Source: Clostridium sp. (lineage in GTDB: Bacteria; Bacillota; Clostridia; Clostridiales; Clostridiaceae). From it: 64,000 nt of DNA. Each line of letters starts with the position of its first letter. Positions within the stretch are counted from its first letter, which is position 1. Shown here piece by piece: positions 40,858-42,604 of the stretch. The stretch covers positions 1,737,958 through 1,801,957 of the forward strand of contig NZ_JAKVOI010000001.1 of assembly GCF_022482905.1 (NCBI RefSeq), written 5' to 3'. The notes below the pieces were generated by a model that was given only the letters and a program-made list of their open reading frames with translations, was not told where the DNA came from and did no database searches. The position numbers and the translations under genes were made by a program.

Positions 40858-41190
40858 CTATATGTCTTTTGCGGCAGCAGCCGCTACCTTAAAGAGAGCT
40901 ATCAAAATATCCTTCTCATAAGGTGGAACATTTTCAAACCCCTGTAGAAATACTACATGCCTTCCATCCAGTTCCACCTTTTCCTGGGGCATGAAGGTTT
41001 CCTCCCCGGCTCCTGCAACATATGCAATTCTCTTTGTAAATCTTTCCGAGAAGATAACCTGGGTTCCGGCGTAGAATTCAGCCGTATTTTTGCAGATAAC
41101 TTCAAATAGCCTCTTTATATTTTCACATTTGAGTATCTCCTCAAGGTTGCGCACTACAAGTTCTTTAAAATCCACCTTATATATACACAT
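40858..41190 (-). CDS. Unknown 110-residue protein encoded after the HydG-like gene
   Basis: Not recognised. The protein is short and soluble, with helical ends: FKELVVRNLEEILKCENIKRLFEVICKNTAEFY at the start, beta-type sequences in the middle (TQVIFSERFTKRIAYVAGAG, KVELDGRHVVFLQGF), and PPYEKDILIALFKVAAAAAKDI at the end. The order of helix, strands and a final amphipathic helix is reminiscent of a small GAF-like domain, but this is only a guess. It overlaps the end of the HydG-like gene by 14 bases if the ATG at 41190 is used; a GTG five codons later is an alternative. The overlap suggests coupled expression and a shared role. Confidence 0.62.
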   Translation of the reverse strand: MCIYKVDFKELVVRNLEEILKCENIKRLFEVICKNTAEFYAGTQVIFSERFTKRIAYVAGAGEETFMPQEKVELDGRHVVFLQGFENVPPYEKDILIALFKVAAAAAKDI

Positions 41191-42604
41191 CCCTCTGCCC
41201 GTCCGAGATCAGCTGGAGTTTCTTCCTTATTATATTTTGCTTCGCCTCGTCAAATTCCCCTATGGTCTGATCTATTACGCTGTTTCCTACTGCTTTTGTA
41301 TCAGGAGATGCATAATCCAGCAGATATTCCTTGAAGGTAAATATGGCATTTGGAATACAATAATTGTGAATCAGGGACTTCTTGGCTATACTCATGAAAT
41401 GGGACCCCGTTCTTCCACACCTGTAGTCTGCCGTACAAAAAGAAGGTATACATCCCTGTCTGCATACGTCCCTGACTGCCTCGTCAAGACTCCTCATGTC
41501 ACCAAGCTGAAATTGCTCCTTCTCAGGTATGAGCCCCCTGTCATACTCGGTATATCCTCCAATTCCAATTCTTGATCCGGCATCAATCTGTGACACTCCA
41601 AGAGGCAGTACCTCTTCTCTGACTTTTGTACTCTCCCTTGCAGTTAAAATCATTCCAGTATAAGGCACTGAAAGTCTCAAAATCGCAACAAGCTTCTTAA
41701 AATCATTGTCCGATACTCTATATTTCGGTTCCAGAGTATATGGCACGTCAAGTGCCGGCTCTATTCTCGGGAAAGATATGGTATGAGGTCCGACTCCACC
41801 GAACATCTTTTCAAAATGAATTGTATGGTAAAGCAGCCCCATAACTTCAAATTTCCAATCGTAGAGCCCGAACAGGGCACCTATCCCAAGGTCGTCAATT
41901 CCAGCCTCCATGGCCCTGTCAAGTCCATACAGCCTCCATGCATAATTGGCTTTCACATCTCCATGTGGATGAATTTTTCTGTAGGTATCATGGTGATAGG
42001 TTTCCTGGAATATCTGAAATGTCCCTATTCCAGCTTCATGAAGCTTTTTATATCCGTCTACATCCATAGGTGCTGCATTTATATTGACCCTTCTTATTTC
42101 TCCCCTGCCAACTTTTGTATCGTAGACAGTTTTTATTGTTTCAGCTATAAAATCCGCATCATACATTGGATGTTCACCATACACGAGTATCAATCTTTTA
42201 TGTCCTGCCCTTTCAAGAACCTCAACTTCACTTCTAAGTTCATCCATGGTGAGTGTCTTTCTCTCTATGGCGCCATTGTCCCTTCTGAATCCACAATAGA
42301 GACAATCATTTATACATTTGTTTCCAACGTAAAGCGGTGCAAAAAAGACTATTCTCTTGCCGTATACTTCTTCCTTTATCTGCCTTGCAAGCGCAAACAT
42401 CTCTTCGAGAAGCTCCTCGTCCTGTATCTGAAGCAATTTTGCAGTTTCTTCCGGTTCAAGCCTTACCTTGTTTCTGGCCTTGTCAAATATGGCCCTTATT
42501 TCACTTTTTTCTGGATTTTTTGCCTCATCCAGCTGTTTCCAGATCTTATCATCATCGATAAAATCCTTGAATTCAGGATCAAGATACTTTTTATCTATCT
42601 TCAT
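41177..42604 (-). CDS. HydG-like radical SAM protein with altered auxiliary-cluster motif
   Basis: The 475-residue protein aligns over its length with HydG, the tyrosine lyase that makes the Fe(CO)2CN unit for the [FeFe]-hydrogenase H-cluster. The radical SAM motif is C97-INDC-LYC104. HydG-like stretches include AGIGTFQIFQETYHHDTYRKIHPHG, GIDDLGIGALFGLYDWKFEVMGLL and GPHTISFPR (H274, matching the dangler-iron His of HydG). HydG carries a second cluster on a C-terminal Cx2Cx22C motif, usually in CTACYR-GRTG. Here it reads CTADYRCGRTG..NYC: C390 and C416 are kept but the middle Cys is Asp393 and a new Cys396 appears. So the enzyme may bind the cluster differently or be a paralogue with another product. 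hydE, hydF and hydrogenase genes are not nearby. GGGAGG precedes the ATG. Confidence 0.82.
   Translation of the reverse strand: MKIDKKYLDPEFKDFIDDDKIWKQLDEAKNPEKSEIRAIFDKARNKVRLEPEETAKLLQIQDEELLEEMFALARQIKEEVYGKRIVFFAPLYVGNKCINDCLYCGFRRDNGAIERKTLTMDELRSEVEVLERAGHKRLILVYGEHPMYDADFIAETIKTVYDTKVGRGEIRRVNINAAPMDVDGYKKLHEAGIGTFQIFQETYHHDTYRKIHPHGDVKANYAWRLYGLDRAMEAGIDDLGIGALFGLYDWKFEVMGLLYHTIHFEKMFGGVGPHTISFPRIEPALDVPYTLEPKYRVSDNDFKKLVAILRLSVPYTGMILTARESTKVREEVLPLGVSQIDAGSRIGIGGYTEYDRGLIPEKEQFQLGDMRSLDEAVRDVCRQGCIPSFCTADYRCGRTGSHFMSIAKKSLIHNYCIPNAIFTFKEYLLDYASPDTKAVGNSVIDQTIGEFDEAKQNIIRKKLQLISDGQRDVYI

Follow-up and report, generated by a model that had tools for sequence, protein, structure and literature searches.

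The analysed stretch of DNA, hereafter the window, spans 64,000 nucleotides (G000:C1:1737958-1801957) and carries on its minus strand a hydG gene and, directly downstream, a small ORF (Table 1). The hydG product exceeded the curated cut-off of the HydG equivalog model TIGR03955 and scored 279.3 bits with the ThiH (2-iminoacetate synthase) model TIGR02351, which is under the curated cut-off of 380. Its sequence alignment to ThiH stopped before the auxiliary-cluster motif. The predicted model of the window HydG resembled the HydG structure 4wcx, presumably from Thermoanaerobacter italicus, over 452 residues (7-475), C-terminal part included. The radical SAM CX3CX2C motif was present, with C97, C101 and C104 being invariant in a 64-row alignment and kept in all 198 HydG sequences of the count described below. 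The same alignment had an invariant His274 in GPHTISFPR, which we take to be the dangler-iron ligand of the HydG structures. The radical SAM cysteines and this histidine are thus intact, as the original prediction had stated.

Codon reading of the C-terminal region agreed with the prediction that residue 393 is an Asp, its GAC codon lying two changes from TGC, and that residues 390, 396 and 416 are cysteines. It also revealed an extra cysteine, Cys385, which had gone unmentioned. The window protein does not display the literal C-terminal CX2CX22C of HydG (it reads C390-x2-D393), and the cysteines on hand for its putative auxiliary cluster are C390, C396 and C416, plus C385. Whereas the HydG structures 4wcx and 4rtb (the latter from Carboxydothermus hydrogenoformans) read CTACYR (CX2CX22C), the window protein reads CTADYRC (CX5CX19C). 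A sequencing error at codon 393 is unlikely, because CTADYRC recurs in the HydG genes of C. algifaecis and C. tyrobutyricum, both 87-88% identical to that of the window. The HydG of strain cel8 reads CTAGYRC.

Table 1. Features of the hydG locus and of related genes in the same genome (window positions, unless given as G000:C1 coordinates)
Feature	Position	Strand	Remarks
hydG ORF, HydG radical SAM maturase	41177-42604	minus	475 aa; TIGR03955 511.8 bits, cut-off 312.15
110-aa ORF, weakly GAF-like model	40858-41190	minus	overlaps hydG end
Radical SAM motif C97-x3-C101-x2-C104	42293-42316	minus	cysteine positions read
His274 (CAT) of GPHTISFPR	41783-41785	minus	invariant column, 64/64 alignment rows
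Cys385, possible alternative ligand (C385-x4-C390-x25-C416)	41450-41452	minus	codon read
Cys390 (TGT), first auxiliary-cluster Cys	41435-41437	minus	codon read; kept in 198/198 HydGs
Asp393 (GAC), replaces canonical middle Cys	41426-41428	minus	codon read
Cys396 (TGT), proposed relocated middle ligand (C390-x5-C396-x19-C416)	41417-41419	minus	codon read
Cys416 (TGT), third auxiliary-cluster Cys	41357-41359	minus	codon read; kept in 198/198 HydGs
HydE	G000:C1:2373449-2374429		outside window; 375.1 bits
HydF	G000:C1:169427-170605		outside window; 589.9 bits
PF02906 proteins, two	G000:C1:39997-40701 and 3114061-3114774		outside window

The window genome (3.57 Mb, one contig) encoded one HydG over the family cut-off, that of the window; a second HydG with an intact motif, for which a search had been proposed, was not found over this cut-off elsewhere in the genome. 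The earlier statement that no hydE, hydF or hydrogenase gene is near proved correct, with HydE, HydF and two [FeFe]-hydrogenase-type proteins (PF02906, H-cluster domain) being encoded in the same genome, all outside the window. When inspected by eye, the two PF02906 proteins kept the H-cluster cysteines and resembled what we take to be group B [FeFe]-hydrogenases. The higher-scoring PF02906 type common to most of the genus was not found among the two PF02906 matches of this genome.

All 13 genomes of the genus encoded HydE, HydF and PF02906 proteins. Seven encoded a HydG over the cut-off, three of the CTACYR type and four of the variant type; apart from that of the window, variant hydG genes were present in three genomes of the genus, at 82-88% identity. 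In C. tyrobutyricum (G012), the only HydG over the cut-off was 88% identical to that of the window, read CTADYRC and occurred alongside HydE and HydF; of the three PF02906 proteins encoded there, one had the canonical H-cluster motifs. An isolate of this species is described in PMC8444407 as producing H2. No HydG over the cut-off was found in G002, G005, G006, G007, G008 and G009, all having HydE, HydF and PF02906 proteins. Hence, the presence of a hydrogenase in this genus is no proof that HydG is needed.

These six genomes agree in kind with the acetogenic clostridia of PMC9431212, the part of which covered here reports that a search by known motifs left five of eight acetogenic Clostridium species without a HydG, and cites a figure of about 1% for in vitro hydrogenase activation when HydG is missing. 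The HydG-less genomes of both studies would be compatible with HydG being dispensable or decaying in the genus, with CO and cyanide coming from another route and the variant heading for loss. We regard this as improbable, since the window gene is intact and has counterparts in the three other genomes mentioned above, and since the variant lacking Cys393 (C393-less) was found in distant phyla in the HydG tree described below.

The distribution of the cysteines was counted in 198 distinct full-length HydG sequences, after exclusion of duplicates and of matches whose alignment failed to cover window residues 100-420. Sampling was non-random. Similarity to the window protein guided the retrieval of 80 loci; a class search gave a HydG match in 184 genomes, and 110 unique sequences were read from it, taken from the top 30 by score, from further high and middle scorers and from the 34 genomes with the lowest scores, the remainder being mostly high scorers. 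Cys393 was absent from 39 of the 198 HydGs, with Asp in 15 and Gly in 24, and in the class-wide part of the sample it was missing from only 2 of the 110 unique sequences (window not counted). Cys396 was present in 32 of the 39 C393-less HydGs vs. none of the 159 C393-bearing ones. The corresponding figures were 9/39 vs. 2/159 for Cys385, and 37/39 vs. 2/159 for Cys385 and/or Cys396. Seven C393-less HydGs had no Cys396, five of them with Cys385 and two with neither; the latter two came from genomes (G315 and G316) that each have a second HydG keeping Cys393.

The simplest reading of these counts would be that the middle auxiliary-cluster ligand has been relocated, with CX2CX22C becoming CX5CX19C, which supported the shifted ligand set put forward originally. 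As a further inference, Cys385 could act as the substitute ligand in the five C396-less HydGs, so that the new site of the middle ligand would be 396 or perhaps, in certain lineages, 385. As 15 of the 39 C393-less HydGs have their Asp in the very place of the ligand, one may suppose that Asp393 serves as third ligand of an auxiliary cluster with altered redox potential, and that Cys396 is incidental. This seems improbable to us, because the Gly found in the other 24 has no side chain able to bind iron, making Asp393 unlikely as the key residue, and because all 15 Asp393 HydGs also carry the Cys396 that C393-bearing sequences never had. An Asp as essential ligand was thus rejected.

A HydG tree was built by a quick method, with the motif columns left out, from 100 thinned HydGs (35 of the 39 C393-less and 65 of the 159 C393-bearing sequences) and six ThiH sequences as outgroup. 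A family tree had been suggested originally to look for a CTADYRC clade; here, the C393-less rows formed two clades. One comprised 21 rows (SH-aLRT 99), including Syntrophomonas relatives, Atribacterota, Omnitrophota and others. The second comprised 15 rows (SH-aLRT 95), among them the window HydG and one C393-bearing row. Three changes between Cys and another residue were needed at position 393. Forcing all 35 C393-less rows together cost 54 log-likelihood units with an AU p value of 0.056, so that a single origin of the Cys393 loss is not firmly rejected. An independent-pairs test of Cys393 loss against Cys396 gain was not significant, the 2-3 pairs available being too few to reach significance, and the Cys393/Cys396 association rests on few independent changes.

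The column of window residue 337 also differed between the two groups, with Cys in 44% of the 39 C393-less HydGs vs. 2% of the 159 others; this Cys is present in the HydG of Syntrophomonas wolfei (GCSQIDAG) and absent from that of the window.

The HydG of S. wolfei (SWOL_RS05190, sequence SFCTADYRCGRTG) has the motif CTADYRCGRTG. It resembles the window HydG in this motif, in being the only HydG over the cut-off in its genome and in having a homologous small ORF adjoining its gene. It differs in sharing 59% identity with the window protein, in having no Cys385 and in being encoded in an operon with hydE and hyd1ABC, whereas the window hydG has no such neighbours. L243, a close relative of the S. 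wolfei HydG, fell in the other C393-less clade than the window HydG.

According to PMC5626996 (Losey et al. 2017), S. wolfei Hyd1ABC was co-expressed in E. coli with HydE, HydF and HydG of the same species and a 348-bp ORF, and the active enzyme was purified. With methyl viologen, the purified Hyd1ABC showed 3,340 U/mg (Table 1 of that paper) or 571 U/mg (its Table 2), and it contained 29.2 Fe per mole vs. 30 predicted; its Results and plasmid section report no HydG-minus control. The gene-specific parts of the published primers matched the S. wolfei sequence exactly, the forward primer covering the ATG of hydG and the reverse primer the end of hydE, and the hyd1ABC primers also matched the hyd region. 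This match and the motif reading indicate that it was the CTADYRC HydG that was used to mature the hydrogenase in E. coli. When the HydG model was searched against 14 control genomes including E. coli, only T. maritima gave matches at E <= 1e-90; at E <= 1e-3, E. coli matched too, and one control genome alone passed the family cut-off.

The S. wolfei protein, with CTADYRC, as the only HydG over the cut-off in its genome and as the maturase employed to obtain an active [FeFe]-hydrogenase, is the kind of case that the original prediction had named as reducing the motif to a normal variant. It contradicted the idea of a one-off oddity at the window and pointed to a recurring variant. Since it also departs from CX2CX22C, this exact spacing is of little use for judging function. 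By analogy, the window gene probably encodes a working HydG.

We further considered the genomes reached via C393-less loci. Among these 32, a single HydG was found in 29, HydE in 30, HydF in 26 and PF02906 proteins in 30, with absences counting as weak evidence because many are metagenome assemblies. Four Atribacteria genomes, G317-G320 (loci L047, L048, L049 and L051; CTADYRC), had HydG and PF02906 and no HydF at E <= 1e-80, which could be due to incomplete assemblies or to a diverged HydF.

A last alternative is that the enzyme has lost its auxiliary cluster, or holds it only unstably, and acts as a ThiH-like tyrosine lyase that sets free cyanide or some other product, with no maturase role; the missing literal CX2CX22C, the location of the hydE, hydF and hydrogenase genes outside the window and the mutational evidence, given in PMC9431212, that the HydG C-terminal cluster is essential for maturation would fit this view, but the published use of the S. 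wolfei CTADYRC HydG to make active hydrogenase, the conservation of C390 and C416 in all 198 HydGs, the single HydG in 29 of the 32 genomes, most with HydE, HydF and PF02906 proteins, and the score under the ThiH cut-off make it very doubtful. In the same way, the earlier suggestion of a paralogue that does not make the Fe(CO)2CN unit was not supported, the window HydG being the only one over the cut-off in a genome with HydE, HydF and two PF02906 proteins, and a non-HydG paralogue was rejected on account of the family score, the single copy and the use of the S. wolfei HydG.

The spacing itself is partly known already. The covered part of PMC9431212 (2022) lists CLAU_RS03260 of C. autoethanogenum as a HydG candidate with C-x(5)-C-x(19)-C, and candidates of other acetogens with C-x(4)-C-x(23-25)-C, naming both spacings as possible C-terminal cluster motifs. 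Compared by published spacing and not by sequence, the former matches C390/C396/C416 of the window protein and the latter resemble C385/C390/C416. Unlike the present count, that part of the paper describes no exclusivity or clade pattern. A literature search by title gave no work on HydG ligand relocation besides PMC9431212, and the exclusive Cys393/Cys396 pattern was not found described in a search conducted mostly by title.

The small ORF was followed in the 194 of 198 HydG loci with at least 400 bases downstream. A homologue lay directly after hydG in 26 of 37 C393-less sequences, in 9 of 58 C393-bearing sequences with at least 52.5% identity to the window HydG and in none of 99 more distant ones. 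Besides the window, loci with such a homologue were L031-L036, L040, L047-L049, L051-L059, L061-L065, L067-L069, L073, L084, L089, L096 and L098. The S. wolfei homologue lies between hydG and hydE, within the amplicon of PMC5626996. The Pfam/NCBIfam search of the family gave no fitting entry, stray matches being limited to single members of the 34, and its profile found nothing better than E 0.086 among PDB sequences. The predicted model (pLDDT 92.5) matched DosP at E 8.7e-4 and then, with weaker E values, mostly GAF-domain and sensor-kinase chains. The term "GAF-like" is therefore tentative. The small protein belongs to a conserved family encoded downstream of many HydGs of one family branch.

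We favor, with a probability of about 0.75, a working, sole HydG in which the middle auxiliary-cluster ligand has moved to Cys396. The window HydG would then be a radical SAM tyrosine lyase making CO and cyanide, and for H-cluster assembly it would supply HydE and HydF with an iron-carbonyl-cyanide unit. As in other HydGs, three cysteines would hold its auxiliary iron-sulfur cluster, with the middle one shifted by one helical turn (C390/C396/C416, CX5CX19C, instead of C390/C393/C416, CX2CX22C) and with Cys385 as a second possible substitute ligand. The family, the fold of the model, the single copy, the partner genes, the mutual exclusion of Cys393 and Cys396 and the published use of a CTADYRC HydG are shown, whereas cluster binding by Cys396, activity of the window enzyme and unchanged chemistry are what we infer. 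A bolder version, which we hold only tentatively, is that the middle ligand moved from 393 to 396 in two separate lineages, with a third solution via Cys385, and that the re-ligated cluster differs in geometry and is assisted by a GAF-like protein of its own, the product of the adjoining downstream ORF.

Recognition of HydG commonly relies on CX2CX22C, and hydG was sought by known motifs in PMC9431212. With a broad group of HydGs having an apparently moved ligand, such motif rules should be relaxed. The natural series formed by C393, by D/G393 with C396 and by G393 with C385 offers a test of how the auxiliary cluster and the dangler iron depend on their ligands, for which the S. wolfei HydG is a ready system.
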